A stretch of DNA of 41,305 nt from a virus. The notes beneath the pieces were generated by a model. The model saw nothing but the letters and a program-made list of their open reading frames with translations, was not told the DNA's origin and did no database searches. Below are positions 7,554-38,458 of this stretch, piece by piece. The position numbers and the translations under genes are program-made. The DNA lies in IMG/VR virus record IMGVR_UViG_3300021067_000012, positions 1-41,305 of that record. One strand, given 5' to 3'. How positions within the stretch are numbered: position 1 is the stretch's first letter; each line of letters begins with the position of its first letter.

Positions 7554-8863
7554 GCCGCCTCCGTGTACGTGTTCTGGGGGAACAGCGCCTTGAAGCTGGC
7601 CGGCGCCCCGCCAATCACGCAGTCCGTGAACTCCAGGACGTCGAAAATCTCCTGCCACCGGGCGGCGTGGTTCCCCAGCGGTGTCTTGACCCCATAGCGC
7701 GGCCAGCGCGGGATCCGACAGCGTCGAAACGCCAACCGCTCGATGCGCTGTCTGTCATCCACCACCACCAACGACGTGCCCGTCAGAAGAATCACCGTAT
7801 CCTCGACGTCCACCGTCCCGACGCCACCCGCGAGTAGCAGGAACCACCCTTGCTCGCCCTCGGCCGCCTGGTGCTGGATGTCGAAGCGGCTGTGGAGTAT
7901 GCGAATGCCCGTGGTCCGTGGCCCCTCCGGCACGTTGGGCTGCCGTCCGCTGATGTTGATAGCTGAACCGACGTCGTGCATCCACACGTGGTCGTAGGTG
8001 ATATTGCGCACACTGCCGCCACTCTTCGGCGTCAGCATCGACCCGAAGCCGCGCTGAATCGGCCCGCTGCTCACCGCCATCTCGACGTAGCGGAACGTCA
8101 CGTCGTGGCCGTCTTTGACTTCCGCGAGGTTCTTCAGGTTCTCGTTCGTGTCGTTCGTGAACAGCTCCGGGGGCTTGGTTATTTGCAGGTAGCGCTCCGG
8201 CGTGCCTTCGTAGGTGACGTTGGTGATGTGCGTGCCCGCCGGCAGCCGGGTCGCCTCACCGCCCGCCATCAGGTTGATGGACGCACCCGTATACGAACCG
8301 CCGCGTACGAGCAGCGCGCCGATCGTGTTGAGGCTCGTCACGCAGTGCGTCTCAATCCCGACCGGGGACCAGACGTTCAATACCTCGCAGTCGAGCAGCT
8401 GCGTGTCGGCCGCGCAGTTGTAGATGCCTCGGTGCGCGTAGCGGTGATGATGCTCCGGGATGCGCACGCGCTCCAGGGTGATGCGCTGCGGAATCTGCTC
8501 CAGCTGCGTCTGCGTGGCGTTGTTGGCGCCGAGCGTGATGACCTCGCCCACGTCCGACGTCGCCGAGAAATCCAGCCCCCTGAAGTCATGCACCCCCGGC
8601 GGCACATACAGCGCTGGCCCCTGCACCCCGTGCAGCCAAGCGCCATTCCCCACCAGCGTGGTGCCTGACTGGGACACCACAAACCGCCCCTCAAACCGTG
8701 TCCCCGCCTGCAACAGGAGGGTGCCGCCCTCGAGCAGACCGGCGTGCAGCTCGTCGCTGGTGGTAACGGGACGGCCTACGGGTTCCTCCGGTTGCACCGC
8801 CTGCCGGATGCGATCGACGGCCGCCTGGATGGCGTCGAGCTCGGCGAGGATGGGATCACTCAT
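7550..8863 (-). CDS. Right-handed parallel beta-helix protein (tailspike-like)
   Basis: 437 aa. The N terminus is a short helix (ILAELDAIQAAVDRIRQAV) suited to trimerisation. It is followed by the pectate-lyase-like entry 'LLEGGTLLLQAGTRFEGRF' and a long series of beta-helix rungs (GVHDFRGLDFSATS, RITLERVRI, NITYDHVWMHDVGSAINISG, GIRILHSRFDI). Such proteins usually bind or cleave surface polysaccharide. Odd location: it is coded between two DNA methyltransferases, not with the tail genes, and overlaps the C5 methyltransferase stop as ATGA. It has no obvious virion-anchoring domain. Active-site acids cannot be assigned by eye. Confidence 0.8.
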   Translation of the reverse strand: MSDPILAELDAIQAAVDRIRQAVQPEEPVGRPVTTSDELHAGLLEGGTLLLQAGTRFEGRFVVSQSGTTLVGNGAWLHGVQGPALYVPPGVHDFRGLDFSATSDVGEVITLGANNATQTQLEQIPQRITLERVRIPEHHHRYAHRGIYNCAADTQLLDCEVLNVWSPVGIETHCVTSLNTIGALLVRGGSYTGASINLMAGGEATRLPAGTHITNVTYEGTPERYLQITKPPELFTNDTNENLKNLAEVKDGHDVTFRYVEMAVSSGPIQRGFGSMLTPKSGGSVRNITYDHVWMHDVGSAINISGRQPNVPEGPRTTGIRILHSRFDIQHQAAEGEQGWFLLLAGGVGTVDVEDTVILLTGTSLVVVDDRQRIERLAFRRCRIPRWPRYGVKTPLGNHAARWQEIFDVLEFTDCVIGGAPASFKALFPQNTYTEAA

Positions 8864-9570
8864 GCGATCTGCCTTTCAGTGGCCGTCGCGGCTTTCACGG
8901 CCTTGGCGATGGCACGGCCCATGGGGAGCGGAACACCATTACCCACCACCCGAATCTTGCCGGCCACTGTGAACGGCGCATCAGACAGAAAGTCCGCGGG
9001 CAACCCTTGCGCCGGTAGCATGACGTCGCGGAGGTAGCGGTCCGATTTGTCGCCGAACGCGCGACCACCCTTCCAGATCGTGGCGTTCGCCGTCACCGTC
9101 GGCACGCATTGGGCCGCCACGGCAGGCCGCCACCACTCCAGCGCGAGAGGCCAACCCGCACGAGTGCCAAAATCAAAAACGCGGCGCCGCCGCTGAATGC
9201 CACCGCAATGCAACCGGTTCTCGAGTTCCGTGCGGCGCGTCGCATAACCATCCACGCTGAGCATCGGCGCTCCCGGTACGTTCTCGCGCAGCCACCATTC
9301 GGGACTGGCCTCGATCACGCATCGCGCGAACTCTCCAGACAGATCCGGCGACACCTCACAACCGGCTTGCGCGGAGACGAGCCCGAGATGCGAATGCGCG
9401 GGACACGGATCGCCGCCGATCACGCCGTCGAACTTCCCGGCCGGCGGGTGAAACCGCCGCTGGTCTCCGCCCCACAGCAGATCCGGCCCGCGCACGACAC
9501 AGAAGCCCTCCTGCTCGAAGGCCATGTCGAGCAGGCCGATGCCAGGAAATAAACTCAACACCAACTGCAT
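8860..9570 (-). CDS. DNA (cytosine-5) methyltransferase
   Basis: 236 aa. Motif I is LSLFPGIGLLD, motif IV GGDPCPAHS (catalytic Cys56, with PCP instead of the usual PCQ), motif VI LRENVPG, motif VIII IQRRRRVF, motif X GNGVPLPMGRAIA. All catalytic motifs are present. The target-recognition region between VIII and X is only about 80 residues, so this is a compact enzyme. It likely protects phage DNA from restriction or alters gene control. No endonuclease partner is present. Confidence 0.93.
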   Translation of the reverse strand: MQLVLSLFPGIGLLDMAFEQEGFCVVRGPDLLWGGDQRRFHPPAGKFDGVIGGDPCPAHSHLGLVSAQAGCEVSPDLSGEFARCVIEASPEWWLRENVPGAPMLSVDGYATRRTELENRLHCGGIQRRRRVFDFGTRAGWPLALEWWRPAVAAQCVPTVTANATIWKGGRAFGDKSDRYLRDVMLPAQGLPADFLSDAPFTVAGKIRVVGNGVPLPMGRAIAKAVKAATATERQIA

Positions 9571-28857: not shown

Positions 28858-29769
28858 TCAGAGCCTCACGAAAATCATCGCGGCCAGTCGTTCCGGCTGC
28901 CCGCTCGCATCGACCGCCAACGTCCCCGCCGCGTGGCTGTGCGCATCCACCGCCAGCGTCCCCACGCCGTGTTGATGCGGGTCCATCGTCAGACTGTGGC
29001 CGTGGGACTCACTGGCGACGGTGACCGCCGCGCTGGTGAAGTCTTCGACCTGCACCGTGGCATCCGCCCCACCCATGCCGCCCGTGGACGTCACCGCCGC
29101 CGTCTGCCCGCTGATCGTGGCCGTGGCCGTCGCGGTGCTCCCCGAGAGGCCGGGGGCACTGGCGCCTTGCACCGTGCCGGTGTACGTCCCGCCCTTCAGG
29201 TAGGCATCGCTCAGATCGGGCGTCACCACCGATGAAGTCCCGAGCGTGGCGCCCACCGTGAGCTGGTCGTACGTCGAGCCGTCACAGAGGCCGTAGCCCG
29301 CGCCCGGGTCGCTCAGCCAGTGTGAGAAGCGGCCCGGGAGATCCCCGTCGGCCCACGTCCACGCCGCGCCGTCCCACCGCACGGTATGCCGAAAGTTCGA
29401 GACGAACACGCGCACGCCGACATCGGTCGCGCCGAGGTCCGTCGGTTCATTGCCGAACGTGGCCGTCATCGTGCCGGTGACGTACTGCCAGCTCGCGCTG
29501 CCCACGTTGCGAAACAAGAGTCCCCGGTCCGATTCGTAGAACGTCGCCCCTGCGCTGTAGTTCGCCGGCGGATACGCCGCGAGGCGATTGGCGTGCGTGT
29601 CCACCAGGACGGTCGAGAGGTTGCCCGTCAGCGCGATCCGGAACGCCTCGACGGCACTGGTCAGGTTCTCGAAGTAGCGCCGCCACGTATCCCGCGACAG
29701 CAATCCGGTCCTGACATCGGTTAACGGGTCATCCAGCGGGAGGAAGGGGCGGGCAGTGGGTGTCGCCAT
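28858..29769 (-). CDS. Tail fibre protein with collar-like domain, 303 aa
   Basis: The N-terminal 60 residues (DPLTDVRTGLLSRDTWRRYF) are shared with podovirus tail proteins. YSAGATFYESDRGLLFRN follows, then a collar-like part WLSDPGAGYGLCDGSTYDQL with TPDLSDAYLKGG, and a Ser/Thr/Ala beta-repeat end with histidine turns (SHGHSLTMDPHQHGVG). His-rich ends chelate metal in several fibre tips. It lies just after gp10. Confidence 0.78.
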   Translation of the reverse strand: MATPTARPFLPLDDPLTDVRTGLLSRDTWRRYFENLTSAVEAFRIALTGNLSTVLVDTHANRLAAYPPANYSAGATFYESDRGLLFRNVGSASWQYVTGTMTATFGNEPTDLGATDVGVRVFVSNFRHTVRWDGAAWTWADGDLPGRFSHWLSDPGAGYGLCDGSTYDQLTVGATLGTSSVVTPDLSDAYLKGGTYTGTVQGASAPGLSGSTATATATISGQTAAVTSTGGMGGADATVQVEDFTSAAVTVASESHGHSLTMDPHQHGVGTLAVDAHSHAAGTLAVDASGQPERLAAMIFVRL

Positions 29770-31259
29770 CAGGACGTCCCCACGTGGGCCTCGAGCGAGG
29801 CGCCCACCACCGTGACCGGCACCGCATCCGCGATGGCGACCTCGAACACCCGATCCCGGGCCGAGCCGAGGCGATCCCAGACGACGCGCGTCCGAAAGGC
29901 GCCACGCGCCCCGAGACTCGCGCGCCGTTCATCGGACCACGTCCGGCCCCCATCGTTGCTATAGCGGAGCATCGCCACGGGCGCGGCCGATAAGTCCGTG
30001 CCGATGCCTGTCTCGGCGTCGAGCTCGAACCGCGAGTAGAAGACCGTCTTGCCGTCCTGCCGGATGTGGGGCGCGCGGCGCATCCGGCGCAACGGGCCGA
30101 GGTTGTCATCGTGGTAGGCCAGCGACTGCTCGTAGATCGTCCCGGCCTCGGGATCGCCTACCAGGTGCTTGCCGAAGGCGTAGCAGTGACAGCACGACCG
30201 ATCCATCCCGTACTCGCCGCGGGCGGTGGACCACCGGCCGCGTTCATGCCACAAGCCCGTCGAGACGTCGTAGACGAACGTGGCGTCGGCGGTCGGGAAG
30301 GTCAGCACGTAGAACGTCCGGCCTTCCTCCTGGTAGGCATAGCCGATCGCATCGTCGCGGCGGGCGTAGCCGCGCCAGAGGTGTTCGAGCGCATCCGTCG
30401 AGACGCGCACGGGCGAACTGCCCTGCGCCTTGATCACCATCCCGGCGCCGTCCTTGTTGCGCCCGAGCCAGAATCCCGTGTTATCGAGTTCGGCCGCGCT
30501 GAACGGGGCTTCGATGCCGAAACTCATATACGCGCCGGGAATTGGCTGGAAGACTTCATCGGCCGCGCCGCTTTGGTAGTAGGCGATGCTGCTGACCGAG
30601 CCGAGCAGCCAGACTTGCCGTTGCAGGTTGATCGCCGCCAGCCAGTTGTCGGATCCCAACGATCGCACGGCGGCATCGTTCGGATCCCAGGAGAGGCCGT
30701 CGAAAATGTCGGAGTACTGAAACCGGATACCGTCCTTCTCCAAGGCGAGAAAGTAGCCGTCCACGAACAACCCCATGACGGCATAGGTCGGGAACCCCGC
30801 GGCGGTGATCGGCGTGAACACATCGCTCGCAAGATCGAAGATGTAGCCCTCGCCGCCCGAGGTGATAAACAGCTGGTGCCCGCCTTGGCCGTTACTCGAG
30901 ATGGTCGCGGGCTCGGGTCCAACGGCCACCGTGCCGTGCGTGGTCACCGGGCCACCGACCGCATCAGGGGTAATCTCGGCGAAGATGCCCCCCACCACCG
31001 CAAAGGCCCGCCCGTCCTGCGCGAACAGGGCGCGCACGGGCCGGTCATCGAACATCTGCCCGCTGATCGGCGGATCCGGCGCGAAGATCGCGGCGTCGGG
31101 GATGTAGATGCGCTTGCCGGGTGCCGAGTAGAACACCGTCGCCGGATCAGCGCCGTCCTTTTCGACGGTCACGGGGATGAGATTGACCGCCCTGTCGGCA
31201 CTCACCACGCGGCTGCGTGCCTGATACGTCCCGCCCACGAATCCCTGGAAGACCGGCAT
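29769..31259 (-). CDS. gp10-like packaged-DNA stabilisation / tail hub protein
   Basis: 496 aa from ATG 31259; P22 gp10 is 472 aa. It closes the portal channel after packaging. Start MPVFQGFVGGTYQARSRVVS then AVNLIPVTVE; beta-propeller-like blades (HQLFITSGGEGYIFDL, GLSWDPNDAAV, WLAAINLQRQVWLLG); C-terminal RRMRRAPHIRQDGKTVFYS, ELDAETGIGTDLSAAP, RYSNDGGRTWSDE and WDRLGSARDRVFEVAI, the hallmark of this family. The start overlaps the previous stop by one base. Confidence 0.88.
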   Translation of the reverse strand: MPVFQGFVGGTYQARSRVVSADRAVNLIPVTVEKDGADPATVFYSAPGKRIYIPDAAIFAPDPPISGQMFDDRPVRALFAQDGRAFAVVGGIFAEITPDAVGGPVTTHGTVAVGPEPATISSNGQGGHQLFITSGGEGYIFDLASDVFTPITAAGFPTYAVMGLFVDGYFLALEKDGIRFQYSDIFDGLSWDPNDAAVRSLGSDNWLAAINLQRQVWLLGSVSSIAYYQSGAADEVFQPIPGAYMSFGIEAPFSAAELDNTGFWLGRNKDGAGMVIKAQGSSPVRVSTDALEHLWRGYARRDDAIGYAYQEEGRTFYVLTFPTADATFVYDVSTGLWHERGRWSTARGEYGMDRSCCHCYAFGKHLVGDPEAGTIYEQSLAYHDDNLGPLRRMRRAPHIRQDGKTVFYSRFELDAETGIGTDLSAAPVAMLRYSNDGGRTWSDERRASLGARGAFRTRVVWDRLGSARDRVFEVAIADAVPVTVVGASLEAHVGTS

Positions 31260-31531
31260 CAGCTGGCCTTCCGCCGTTCCGGCACCTGCCGCCGCTCGAT
31301 CCGCCCGATCCGTCGATCCGCATCCGTGACCCGGTTGGTGGCGTCCGCGATGATCGCCGCATGGACGTCGTCGCTGAGGCTGCACACCCGTGCCCGCAGC
31401 GTCGGCAGTTCCGCCGCCACGACCGCGACGCGCTCGCTCAGCTCCAGATCGCCGAGGCGGGAGACGAGCCGCATCAGGTACATCGTCGTGCGCTCGTGCT
31501 GGGCCACCAGGGTCTGTAACTCATTGCTCAT
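31259..31531 (-). CDS. Small helical protein between adaptor and hub genes, 90 aa
   Basis: MSNELQTLVAQHERTTMYLM then LGDLELSERVAVVAAELPTL and a basic end (IERRQVPERRKAS). Predicted coiled coil. One-base overlap with gp10 and ATGA overlap with the adaptor fusion gene. It may be a neck component or chaperone; not recognised. Confidence 0.65.
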   Translation of the reverse strand: MSNELQTLVAQHERTTMYLMRLVSRLGDLELSERVAVVAAELPTLRARVCSLSDDVHAAIIADATNRVTDADRRIGRIERRQVPERRKAS

Positions 31532-33561
31532 CGCACGAAAATGCGGTCGGAGTGAATATCGTACTGTTCGCCGTAAATGCCGATCCGCGGCGGGATGCGC
31601 GTGTTGCTGCGTTTCACCGCCGCTTTGCTCTCACTCGCCCGCTCCAGCAGCGTCGGACTCACCGGCTTGCCGTACTCCTCGGCCAGTTCCACGGCCAAGT
31701 TACTGACCAGCATCCGCGCCCAGCCGGGGGGGACGCTGATCACCGTGTCGAGACTGGCGACAGACGTGAGCGGCGAACCTGGGGCATACAACGCGAGCTG
31801 GATGGCCGCGGTCGGGACCGGATAGACGTGCAGCGTCCCTAACGGAAAGCCGGGCGAGTAGTAGACGCTGTGCGGCTCGGTCGCGGTCAGCGCTTTCTGC
31901 GGCAGGTTTGCCCACGAAGCGTCCGTGAACATCCCTAGCGGGCGCTCGGAGGTGGGCGTCACCGCCGCGTCGATCAGGGCCACGCGGTCGAGGTACGCGG
32001 GATACACGATGTTGAGATCCCCGCCGGGACCGACGGTGTAGCTGCTCTGCGCCGCGAGGCTGTGCGTGCTGCGCGTCAGCGTGGCCAGCGACAGAGACTC
32101 GGCCCGGAGTGCGTCGATCCACGTCTGGAACGTCAACAGCGCGTCACTCGCTTGTCCCGACGAGATCCGTTCGCCTTCGCCCAGCACGCCGAGCAGCCGC
32201 AACGCGCGGGTAATCAGGTCGCGCACCGTCTGCGTCAGGGCGGTTTCCGCGGGTACCACGGGCGAGGGGGTCGGAGGCGCGACATAGACGGTGCTATTCG
32301 CGTCATTGGAGCCGTCCCCATACGTACTCCACGCCGTGCGCAGGCCGTTGAACGTCGTAATGCCCGCCGTGCCGTAGACGCTGCCGAACGTCCCCGCGCC
32401 GGTCAGTTCGAACGTGTTCCGATCGACCACGCCGCCGCCGCTGTCCCCGCTGCTGTCGGCCCATTCATAGGCCGGCACGCCGTACGCGTTGATGCGCGTG
32501 TTGGTGACAGTGATCGTGCCGGACTTATTGCCGGTATCGCCGACGCCGACGCGCACGACGCCGTGCGTGCCCGTGCGCGTCGTCAACGTGCAGGTATCAA
32601 TGAGACAGCCGACTGCCGCTTTGCAGTACAGGGCACTGCCGTTCGTAGCATGGACGAATCCGCCTTCGGCCGTACAGCCCGACACAGCATGTCCAGCGGA
32701 CTCTTTCAGGACGATGGCATAATCGGCCCCGTTGACCGTGCAGCCGGTGATCTGAATCGCCGAGGCGCCCGCGCCGATCAGCAGCCCATGCCCGGTGCCC
32801 GTCGCGGTGGTGATCGTCGCGTCCCGAATGGACCCCGTCAGCGTGCCGATGGCGGTATGCGAATCCTGTCCGACCTGCACGCCGTACGCCCCCGTGCCAG
32901 TAAACGTCCCCCCGTCCACTTCGAACCCGGTCACCACGCCGGAGAGATACAGCGCTCCCAGCGAACCCATCGCCGTGCAGGCGCGCACGACCGAGGCCGA
33001 AACCGATCCGCCCGTCGATTGCACGCCTTCAATCACGATCGCGCGGGCATTGGTGTTACCGCCGACCGTGGCGGTACAGCCATCGAGGGTGAGGTAATTG
33101 ATCGCCACGGCACCCGACGTGGTCGCTTGCAGGCCGTACCGCTGCGATCCCGGATCGGTCGGGGCGACAAAGCGACACCCGAGAAAACTGAGCCGCGCCG
33201 TCTGGCTGATGCGCACCGCGGACGTGTTGGTGCTCAGGCGCGAGCCGAAGGTCACCTGTCGAAAACGGTAGTACGCATTCGCCGCGCCCGTCAGCGTGTT
33301 GTAGGTCGCGTTCGCGGCCCCGCGAATGACGACATCAGCCGCCACGCCCGTCTCGGATTCAAACGTCACCCAATCCGTGAAGGTGCGGTTGATGTTGAAG
33401 TAGCCGGCGCCCGCCGTGCTTTCCTCATACGTGCCGGACCCAATCCGCACGGTGTCGCCGTGGGTCACGGTGGCTTGCGCTTTCGACAGGGTCAACCAGG
33501 GCAGGGCCGCACTGCCGTCGCCTGTCGTATCGTTGCCGGTCGTGCGGACGTAATAGATCAC
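31528..33561 (-). CDS. Fusion: N-terminal right-handed beta-helix + C-terminal gp4-like head-tail adaptor
   Basis: 677 aa, GTG start (GTGA overlap). Residues 1 to about 415: beta-helix, starting MIYYVRTTGNDTTGDGSA (a 'DG....P..tl..A' entry) with repeated rungs (LSFLGCRFVA, YLTLDGCTATV, IQITGCTVNGADYAIVL, LIDTCTLTTRTG). Residues 416-442: Pro-rich linker (APPTPSPVVPAETAL). Residues 443-677: adaptor domain, TVRDLITRALRLLGVLGEGE, DALLTFQTWIDALRAE, WARMLVSNLAVELAEEYG and TLLERASESKAAVKR, matching P22 gp4 tail-accessory proteins (166 aa). The frame is open through the linker, with no stop. The beta-helix may project from the neck. Fusion is direct; assembly role inferred. Confidence 0.85.
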   Translation of the reverse strand: MIYYVRTTGNDTTGDGSAALPWLTLSKAQATVTHGDTVRIGSGTYEESTAGAGYFNINRTFTDWVTFESETGVAADVVIRGAANATYNTLTGAANAYYRFRQVTFGSRLSTNTSAVRISQTARLSFLGCRFVAPTDPGSQRYGLQATTSGAVAINYLTLDGCTATVGGNTNARAIVIEGVQSTGGSVSASVVRACTAMGSLGALYLSGVVTGFEVDGGTFTGTGAYGVQVGQDSHTAIGTLTGSIRDATITTATGTGHGLLIGAGASAIQITGCTVNGADYAIVLKESAGHAVSGCTAEGGFVHATNGSALYCKAAVGCLIDTCTLTTRTGTHGVVRVGVGDTGNKSGTITVTNTRINAYGVPAYEWADSSGDSGGGVVDRNTFELTGAGTFGSVYGTAGITTFNGLRTAWSTYGDGSNDANSTVYVAPPTPSPVVPAETALTQTVRDLITRALRLLGVLGEGERISSGQASDALLTFQTWIDALRAESLSLATLTRSTHSLAAQSSYTVGPGGDLNIVYPAYLDRVALIDAAVTPTSERPLGMFTDASWANLPQKALTATEPHSVYYSPGFPLGTLHVYPVPTAAIQLALYAPGSPLTSVASLDTVISVPPGWARMLVSNLAVELAEEYGKPVSPTLLERASESKAAVKRSNTRIPPRIGIYGEQYDIHSDRIFVR

Positions 33562-34103
33562 AGGACGATCAACTCCACGAGATACCGATCCAGCGTCAGC
33601 GTCTCACCGCTGACGGTTTTCTGGCCGGTGATCACCACCGTCGTGTCGGCGGTCGTCACCACGCTGGCGGTCACGGCGACCCCCGAACTGGCACTGAACC
33701 CTAAACCCGTGGATAACGCGCCGCCGATCTGGGCATTGGTGGCATTTCGATTGGTGATGAGGGTCAGCAGGTACGCGCTGGCCGTGGTCGTGGGCGCCAG
33801 GGAGGTAAAGGCGGTCCCTGCGGCCCCGCTGTACCGCACGCGCAGCGTCTTGGTATTCGCACTATTGGTATAGGCCCACGTCGTCGTAATACGCAGCGTT
33901 CCACTGAGGCCCAACGCGTTGGCTGGAACCGTACACGTAGCCAGCACGTTTTCCGTGGTATCGGCCGCGGCGCTCACCGCGACGGCCGACGCACAGAGCA
34001 CCCGTACCGCGTTCACCGGCTTCGGCCGGATCGTGACCTGCGCGAGACTCGGCGCGAACAGCACGCCCACGCCGAGGCCGATGAGCAACAGCTTGCGAGT
34101 CAT
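33558..34103 (-). CDS. Signal-peptide-bearing beta-rich protein, 181 aa
   Basis: Start ATG 34103 ([20 protein letters not shown]), a basic end plus hydrophobic core and APSLAQ cleavage-like site. The rest is beta-rich: TTENVLATCTVPANALGLSG, TLRITTTWAYTNSANTKT, LRVRYSGAAG, as in phage virion surface proteins. Placed between capsid and neck genes. A virion protein should not need export, so the N terminus may be a moron gene signal or a propeptide. Confidence 0.7.
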   Translation of the reverse strand: MTRKLLLIGLGVGVLFAPSLAQVTIRPKPVNAVRVLCASAVAVSAAADTTENVLATCTVPANALGLSGTLRITTTWAYTNSANTKTLRVRYSGAAGTAFTSLAPTTTASAYLLTLITNRNATNAQIGGALSTGLGFSASSGVAVTASVVTTADTTVVITGQKTVSGETLTLDRYLVELIVL

Positions 34104-34447
34104 CGCGCCTCTTGGTAGCAATGGACCTTCAGCACGCCGCTCGTGCCGCCAGTCCGAATGGCTCTGAAGCGCACCAAGTTCGTCGTGCCCCGCAACTGCA
34201 GCACGTCGCCCACCTCCAGCAGCACACCTTCGCTGGCCGTCGGGTTGGTGCCATCGAAGCGGTAGCGGATCTGCGCGGTTTCCAGCCGCCCTTCGCAGGC
34301 CGTCTGCTGCGGCTCCCCTGGAGGCCGGATGATCGCGTCGGTGAGGCCGATCGCCGTCCCCGCGACGGTGATCGATTCATAGGTGACGCGGGATTGCGCC
34401 GAGAGGCTGACTGTGCCGAGTATTACCAGCAGCGCGATGCGCCGCAT
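34100..34447 (-). CDS. Small protein with signal-peptide-like N terminus, 115 aa
   Basis: [20 protein letters not shown]: two Arg, hydrophobic core and SAQS cleavage-like site. Then [20 protein letters not shown] and a beta stretch ([36 protein letters not shown]) ending VHCYQEAR, with two Cys that could pair outside the cytoplasm. Coupled by ATGA to the next signal-bearing gene. Confidence 0.7.
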
Positions 34448-34459
34448 AGCTCGTCCTCC

Positions 34460-35467
34460 TTACGTCGGGATCGCCGCCGTGCGTCCCGTCTCAATGAGCG
34501 ACACCCCATCGCTGATCCAGTTCACGACGAACTGCCGGTTCGCCGTTGTCCCCAGCGCCAGCGTCGTCTGCGGCTTGAACCCCGTCCCGAACGTGATCGT
34601 CTTCGCCGTCGTCGCCGTCTGCACCAGCACCAGCGAACACCGCACCCCCGCCGCCGGGACCGTCGTCGTCAGCGTAGCCGTCGCACTGGGCGAGGTCTTC
34701 ACGTTCACGTGCGTCGCGAGTGCCATTGCTGTCGTCCCCGGGGCCAGGGTCACCATCCCGAGTGCCTGCCCGCTGCTGCCGCCACTCGGCGGCGCCGCGA
34801 AGGTCCCATCGGCCCGCAGAAAGTTCGTCGTCCCGCCGGGAAACACATGGTCCGCAAGACTCGTGACGCTGTGCTGCTGCGCGTGCAGCTGGCTCACGTC
34901 CGCTTTGCCCGTCAGCGCCGCCGTCAACCCCGTCACGTCCGCTTGCGCGTGGGTATGCGCACTCGGCGGGAACGTCGGCGGGCGGTTCGTCAGGCCGTTC
35001 CAGTCCGTCGTCCCCGGTGGCCCGACGTCGCCCGGATCGCCTTTCGGCCCTGGCACCGTGCTATCGGCGCCAGCAGGGCCGGGATCGCCGCGATCTCCCT
35101 TCTCGCCCTTCTCGCCGGCGGGCCCAGGGACGGTGCTATCCGCGCCAGGGGGCCCCGGATCGCCACGATCCCCCTTCGGGCCGGCGACCGTGCTGGGCGG
35201 CCCTTCGGGGCCTTCCGGGCCTTCGGGACCAATCAGCCCGCGTGGCCCTTCTGGTCCGACCTCCCCGCGTTCGCCGCGTTCGCCAGGCGGGCCTGGAGGT
35301 CCCATGGGCCCCGCCACTCCACCCAGGGCGGAAAGGTCGCTGCCTTCGTGCAGCACCGGATGCTCACCGATCAGCGGTACGGGGCCGAGAAACCGCCACC
35401 GCCCACCGATGTCATAGTCCGCACCGGGCTGAAAGACGCCCCCCGCGCTGTGCCCTTTCTCTGCCAC
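34460..35467 (-). CDS. Collagen-like fibre protein, 335 aa
   Basis: GTG start at 35467. Residues about 51-155 are Gly-X-Y triplets ([45 protein letters not shown]) broken by short STV spacers, with GADSTVPGP present twice. Then a helical link ([17 protein letters not shown]) and a beta-rich C-terminal trimer-like domain ([25 protein letters not shown]). Such proteins form triple-helix fibres on virions. The 128 bp upstream (35468-35595) hold no gene, only a GC hairpin. The start codon lacks a clear ribosome site. Confidence 0.85.
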
Positions 35468-37219: not shown

Positions 37220-38458
37220 TTAGCCGGCGACGCGGACGGCGCGCCACGCCTGAATGGTCGCCCAGCCGTACAGAATGTCGAGACGGCTCGGGTTGCCGTC
37301 GGTGGTGATCTGGTACTGCCGCACGAGTCGAATGCTGATCCCCGCGGTGCGACTCGCGACACGGGTCACTTCGGCGCCCGCGAGATCCCGCGACAGATCC
37401 GCCGCGACGAGCGCGAAGGCGTCGGGGTCGTACACCAGCGACTGCGGGCTGACGGTCGTGGCCAGCGTGCCGCCGCTCGAGCCCGTCGAACCCAGCACCG
37501 TGATCGCCGCGCTGTTGGCCGGGGAGGTATCGACGCTCTGCAACTGCCCGCTGGTGATGATGCTCGGGCTGATCGGGATCGTGATCGCGCCCGCCGTATC
37601 GCTCACGTCGCCCGTGACCACGAACTGCTGGAGCGATCCCGTCGAACGGAACGACAGCGGATTGATCCCGTAGACGCCCGCAATCGTGAAGACGTCGCCG
37701 CGCTTCAGCGTCGTCGCGCCACTCGCCCAGCCGGAGGTGACGAGGCTTGAGCCCGTCTGGCCCGCGCCGTTGACCACGGGCGTCGAGGCCGTGAACGTGC
37801 CCGTCGTGTGCTTCGCCGTGTTCGGCGACTCGAACCAGCCGCCGATGCCGAGCACTTCGCCGCTGAACTGCCCGGTGCGAAAGGCCGCGCTGATCGTGGC
37901 GCTCGGGTTGAACAGCGCGAAGTTCGCGTTGACCAGCCCGATTCGCGCCTGCGGGTCGAGAATCGCCACGCGACGTCCCGTGCCCGCCGCCATGTTGGTC
38001 AGCTTCGCGCCCGCCTGGAGATACGTGCTGTTGGTCGTCGGCGTCACACCCGGCGTGCCCACGACGTTGTAGACGTCGGGATACACCGTTTCGAAGCCCG
38101 CGACGTCCACCGCATTGGCGAGCGCTTCGGCGGCCGGATTGATCCGGCGCTCGCGCACTTCCTCGATCAGCATCGTCGCGTCCGCACTGGAGTACGACCA
38201 CGCGATGTTGTTCTGCGTCGTCAGACTGATCGGGACCGTCTGATCGAGCAGCGGCTGGAGCTGGAGCGCTTCGCCGCGCGTCACCATGAAGCGCTGCGGG
38301 AGGCGCGCGTTGACCGTGTAGCCGACCTTCGCGCCCGCCACGCGGAAGGCATCGTCGTAGTCCCGGTTCACGTTGGCCGCAAACCGCAGCTCGTTGACGT
38401 AGCCGCGGGCGACCTCTTTCGTGACCCACGTCGGGGTCACGAGGGTATTGGTTGCCAT
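37220..38458 (-). CDS. Major capsid protein, P22-coat-like
   Basis: 412 aa; P22 gp5 is 430 aa. It forms the icosahedral shell (HK97 fold). Start MATNTLVTPTWVTKEVARGY; then DAFRVAGAKVGYTVNARLPQ, LQPLLDQTVPISLTTQNNIA, RINPAAEALANAVDVAGFET and PDVYNVVGTPGVTPT, the conserved P22 coat order; later an inserted beta domain (RGDVFTIAGVYGINPLSF). C terminus RLDILYGWATIQAWRAVRV. It follows scaffold with a 19-bp gap. Confidence 0.9.
   Translation of the reverse strand: MATNTLVTPTWVTKEVARGYVNELRFAANVNRDYDDAFRVAGAKVGYTVNARLPQRFMVTRGEALQLQPLLDQTVPISLTTQNNIAWSYSSADATMLIEEVRERRINPAAEALANAVDVAGFETVYPDVYNVVGTPGVTPTTNSTYLQAGAKLTNMAAGTGRRVAILDPQARIGLVNANFALFNPSATISAAFRTGQFSGEVLGIGGWFESPNTAKHTTGTFTASTPVVNGAGQTGSSLVTSGWASGATTLKRGDVFTIAGVYGINPLSFRSTGSLQQFVVTGDVSDTAGAITIPISPSIITSGQLQSVDTSPANSAAITVLGSTGSSGGTLATTVSPQSLVYDPDAFALVAADLSRDLAGAEVTRVASRTAGISIRLVRQYQITTDGNPSRLDILYGWATIQAWRAVRVAG

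Follow-up and report, generated by a model that had tools for sequence, protein, structure and literature searches.

P22-type tailspikes and the phi29 gp12 neck appendages are beta-helix spikes carried around the neck or tail; both are separate proteins that dock non-covalently, and the P22 tailspike has an N-terminal head-binding domain. Tailspikes and fibres normally dock on the adaptor through separate anchor domains. Tail fibres of phages SU10 and T7 attach at the dodecameric adaptor ring, and in SU10 the fibre N-termini cover the helix bundle and the dock domains of the adaptor (PMC9509320, PMC6702177). The fibre-dock domain is present in the adaptors of SU10, T7 and KP32 and absent from those of P22 and Sf6 (PMC9509320). 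Polysaccharide hydrolysis has been reported for the KP32 tail tubular protein A (PMC5440376, PMC5741709), a T7 gp11-type adaptor described as both structural and enzymatic. This protein is a precedent for a catalytic adaptor; there the adaptor itself is credited with the activity and carries no fused beta-helix, unlike the arrangement analysed here, in which a beta-helix and a head-tail adaptor share one reading frame. No adaptor fusion of this kind was found described in the open-licence literature searched, which is weak evidence of novelty.

The gene belongs to an uncultured P22-like phage and lies in a stretch of viral DNA of 41,305 nucleotides (IMG/VR record IMGVR_UViG_3300021067_000012), hereafter the window. 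The two ends of this contig (6-447 and 40864-41305) share a 442-bp overlap that is 98.4% identical, with seven substitutions and no indel. Each of the seven is synonymous in the portal gene, and the portal frame runs through the join without interruption for 746 codons. In effect, the contig is a complete circle, and the differences between its ends probably reflect co-existing strains, from which it would have been assembled, rather than sequencing noise. Portal and scaffold genes are followed in order by the P22-type coat, a variable block, the fusion, a 90-aa gene, Hc3 and the DNA-ejection proteins (Table 1). The position of the fusion, between the coat and gp10/Hc3 genes, fits the place of the adaptor in the P22-like order, and no second adaptor was found elsewhere in the window genome. 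An earlier note, made from the letters alone, had placed two fibre genes downstream of the fusion; the collagen-like fibre gene instead lies upstream in transcription. Scans of genome contigs with coat and adaptor queries yielded no provirus relative. Elsewhere in the window (8860-9570, minus strand), a gene matches the C5 DNA methylase profile only at positions 60-114 out of 324 and may be split or divergent.

Table 1. Features of the fusion locus and of neighbouring structural genes in the window
Feature	Position	Strand	Basis
Fusion gene, 677 aa: beta-helix, linker and head-tail adaptor	31528..33561	-	ORF, translation, Pfam, PHROG, AlphaFold2
Right-handed beta-helix domain, residues about 1-415	32317..33561	-	first-rung motif matches, AlphaFold2, Foldseek
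Pro/Thr/Ser-rich linker, residues about 416-440, STVYVAPPTPSPVVPAE	32242..32316	-	translation, pLDDT, GC3
Head-tail adaptor domain, residues 441-677 and stop codon	31528..32241	-	PF24175, phrog_12985, P22 gp4 profile, Foldseek, L048 identity
CAG codon 444, aligned with the GTG that starts the separate L048 adaptor	32230..32232	-	start lost in the window
GTGA overlap in which the upstream gene (33558-34121) ends (TGA) and the fusion starts (GTG)	33558..33561	-	
90-aa gene directly downstream, ATGA overlap with the fusion end, conserved in L048	31259..31531	-	
Hc3 / P22 gp10-type packaged-DNA stabilisation protein	29769..31259	-	phrog_578, E 9e-83
Collagen-like tail fibre gene, in the coat-to-adaptor variable block	34460..35467	-	profile matches (Pfam/PHROG)
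P22-type coat protein	37220..38458	-	PF11651, E 7e-35

The fusion reads as a single frame of 677 codons, from a GTG start and without internal stop, and the overlaps at its two ends thus embed it in a tightly packed structural operon. The proposal that one frame joins a beta-helix to a head-tail adaptor through a Pro-rich linker was borne out by the ORF, by Pfam and PHROG matches and by the AlphaFold2 model, which shows both folds.

The C-terminal part is a head-tail adaptor. Residues 445-632 match the Pfam family SU10_adaptor (PF24175; E 6e-8, 33.8 bits versus a curated cut-off of 27) and residues 444-655 match phrog_12985 (E 3e-34). The 38 phage records matched by the fusion protein in tblastn searches align to it only within about 439-677, and their products bear such names as 'tail adaptor' and 'head completion adaptor'. 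AlphaFold2 modelled this part with a pLDDT mostly of 80-95 as helices (446-457, 468-487, 614-630 and 636-653) with strands in between, which is the adaptor fold. Foldseek related it to portal-tail complex proteins of cyanophage A4, VP1, GP4, Pa223 and phicrAss001, the aligned query residues being deduced from alignment lengths. The assignment to a gp4-type adaptor held in part: a profile built from nine members of the adaptor family matched P22 gp4 structures (E about 3e-6), but the domain is of the longer SU10-like type (230-250 aa) rather than of the 166-aa P22 type. By profile, the window adaptor shares its fold and family with the SU10-type adaptor (PF24175; phage SU10 gp11) and P22 gp4. 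It has the same place in the gene order, between the coat and the gp10/Hc3 stabilisation protein, and would be expected to form a ring under the portal. Known family members are separate proteins of 150-250 aa, whereas in the window a beta-helix and linker of 440 residues precede the adaptor, giving a protein of 677 aa; the stand-alone size is a usual trait of adaptors and not a functional requirement.

To place the fusion among its relatives, loci were collected with coat, portal, Hc3 and adaptor queries and from phage records. Near-complete adaptors numbered 46 including that of the window (41 distinct sequences). The 45 other loci (40 distinct sequences) all have a gene for the adaptor on its own, and the N-terminal extension, 443 residues in the window, does not exceed 52 in any of them. 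Neither the full protein nor its N-terminal part had a relative in the viral contigs searched, and the same fusion, which the earlier note had suggested seeking in other contigs, was found neither there nor in the 45 adaptor loci. That note had also held that homologues with the two parts always separate would refute a fusion; the parts are indeed separate throughout, which we read as a lineage-private fusion and not as its absence from the window. The fusion thus appears private to the window lineage and was seen once.

The gene directly upstream of the adaptor varies among these relatives. In the nearest one, L048 (adaptor 76% and Hc3 68% identical to those of the window), the adaptor GTG start overlaps the TGA (GTGA) of a GDSL-family esterase gene, and in EBPR podovirus 1 a polysaccharide-deacetylase gene directly precedes the adaptor. 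Three further loci carry a beta-helix gene in the same slot, as the window does: directly upstream with a 9-base gap (L015), with a TAG that shares one base with the adaptor GTG (L032), or with a 96-base gap to the adaptor start (L034). The slot is therefore interchangeable, and judging from these gene neighbourhoods it often holds a separate, exchangeable gene of carbohydrate type. All of these slot genes are separate and have their own stops, unlike the window fusion, and past the first rung the window beta-helix has no detectable sequence similarity to any of them.

A right-handed beta-helix is well supported as the fold class of the N-terminal part. Its first rung (YYVRTTGNDTTGDGS..PWLTLSKA...GDTVRIGSGTY) matches the start of the pectate lyase PelN and of a beta-helix xylosidase. 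The PelN match covers residues 2-52 (E 6e-6) and that of xylosidase 3vst to the N-terminal part has an E-value of 0.2. Sequence evidence for this part is confined to that rung, and the PelN score lies far below its curated cut-off. In the AlphaFold2 model, whose alignment was without homologues for this part, regular beta-helix strands are modelled with a pLDDT mostly of 75-88 over residues about 120-300, and residues 1-87 are poorly modelled (pLDDT <50). A single-sequence model of the beta-helix part is also all-strand, with less confidence than the full-length run. The nearest folds by Foldseek are AlgE, alginate epimerases and lyases, the fucoidan lyase FdlA, tailspikes and depolymerases, all with low TM-scores, and the single-sequence model gave no E-value below 0.02. 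An N-terminal virion-binding domain ahead of the beta-helix, a tailspike trait, is absent: the beta-helix motif begins at residue 2. The anchor of the fusion would be the C-terminal adaptor, as opposed to the N-terminal head-binding domain of the P22 tailspike.

As no full-length sequence homologue of the beta-helix part was detected, its function rests on the fold. That the beta-helix is a structural decoration of the neck or binds a receptor, and is not an enzyme, comes not far short of an even chance. In favour of such a role, no family-level lyase or hydrolase match was found past the first rung and no catalytic residues were identified in this part; against it, the slot carries carbohydrate-type enzymes in some relatives, and epimerases, lyases and depolymerases are among the fold neighbours.

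The junction was then weighed as a possible artefact, in which adjacent or overlapping beta-helix and adaptor genes would look fused because the linker sequence had falsely gained an indel or lost a stop. The two genes are separate in all relatives, often overlapping by 1-4 bases, the fusion was seen in one genome only, and a TGA of the +1 frame falls exactly at the junction, such that a one-base error in the last beta-helix codons could unite two frames. However, a read error that united two genes should leave the adaptor its own start, and the window adaptor has no well-supported one: CAG444 stands where the aligned L048 adaptor has its GTG start, no internal ATG lies near the junction, and the internal GTG435 and GTG446 lack a Shine-Dalgarno sequence, although some genes of the window genome also lack a clear one. 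A single error would hence not suffice for a slip, unless the adaptor were started from a weak, coupled GTG or CTG codon. The linker also speaks against it, being of a Pro/Thr type common between domains and keeping its codon-position GC in the fusion frame throughout (GC3 0.81), and so does the 442-bp end overlap, with its synonymous substitutions and without indels. AlphaFold2 gave residues 367-439, including the linker, a pLDDT <50. CTG442, which lines up with several homologues, was considered as the lost adaptor start and set aside, since in L048, the nearest relative, the start codon aligns with CAG444 instead; a VVP match that links the junction to the L032 beta-helix end was too short to use.

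The aligned CAG and the lack of a Shine-Dalgarno-supported internal start thus favour a real fusion over an assembly or sequencing slip, which we consider quite improbable. We conclude with good confidence that a beta-helix gene of the coat-to-adaptor slot has truly fused, specifically in this lineage, with the adjoining adaptor gene, and that the beta-helix, which would then be tethered covalently to the neck, most likely acts as a spike that binds or trims polysaccharide.

Under this fusion reading, a beta-helix gene in the slot would have fused recently with the neighbouring adaptor gene, by little more than the loss of a stop or one indel. The adaptor half would form the usual dodecameric ring beneath the portal, and the beta-helix half would be held covalently on the outside of the neck by the flexible Pro-rich linker, approximately at the site where, in related phages, fibres or spikes dock as separate proteins. 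The fused beta-helix would then be a permanently attached spike, most likely one that binds or trims the surface polysaccharide of the host. We infer the ring copy number, oligomeric state, outward orientation and polysaccharide activity of the fusion. Its fullest form, with up to twelve covalent beta-helix arms, serving as depolymerases or for receptor binding, on the neck connector ring in place of docked tailspikes, is offered tentatively, with the chances leaning against it.

An unlikely version of the same fusion reading, and not exclusive of it, is a dual product, with the full-length fusion made alongside a free adaptor, which would arise by initiation within the frame (at GTG446, GTG435 or CTG442) or by proteolysis of the linker; the beta-helix would then occupy only some of the twelve ring positions. 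CTG442 has a GGAA 6 bases upstream, GTG446 is two codons away from where the adaptor naturally starts, cleavage could plausibly occur in the flexible linker, and crowding of the ring would presumably favour a mixed stoichiometry. The junction nevertheless offers no strong ribosome site and no ATG.

A covalent fusion of adaptor and spike would tie spike number to ring symmetry and test how much bulk a twelvefold ring tolerates during assembly. It would also mark a direct evolutionary path from docked to built-in spikes, by way of a slot gene beside the adaptor and then fusion. The finding also marks the coat-to-adaptor interval of P22-like phages as a slot in which carbohydrate-active genes can be interchanged.

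Other observations concern the genes of the relatives. The GDSL-family esterase gene of the nearest relative (L048:3-524) is a candidate virion carbohydrate esterase. The Hc3 homologue at L034:2901-6064 is interrupted: after its first 374 codons comes a different frame, in which several hundred inserted residues precede the C-terminal part of Hc3; this may reflect an insertion, a frameshift or an assembly fault. The adaptor at L044:16484-17461 and those of L049-L054, of ~320 aa, have an internal insertion of ~70-80 residues relative to the family profile. Finally, two predicted viral proteins in BFVD, A0A5Q2W8Q5 (410 aa) and A0A6J5Q433 (402 aa), show an adaptor-length match and exceed the usual size by ~170-200 residues; they are possibly other adaptor fusions.
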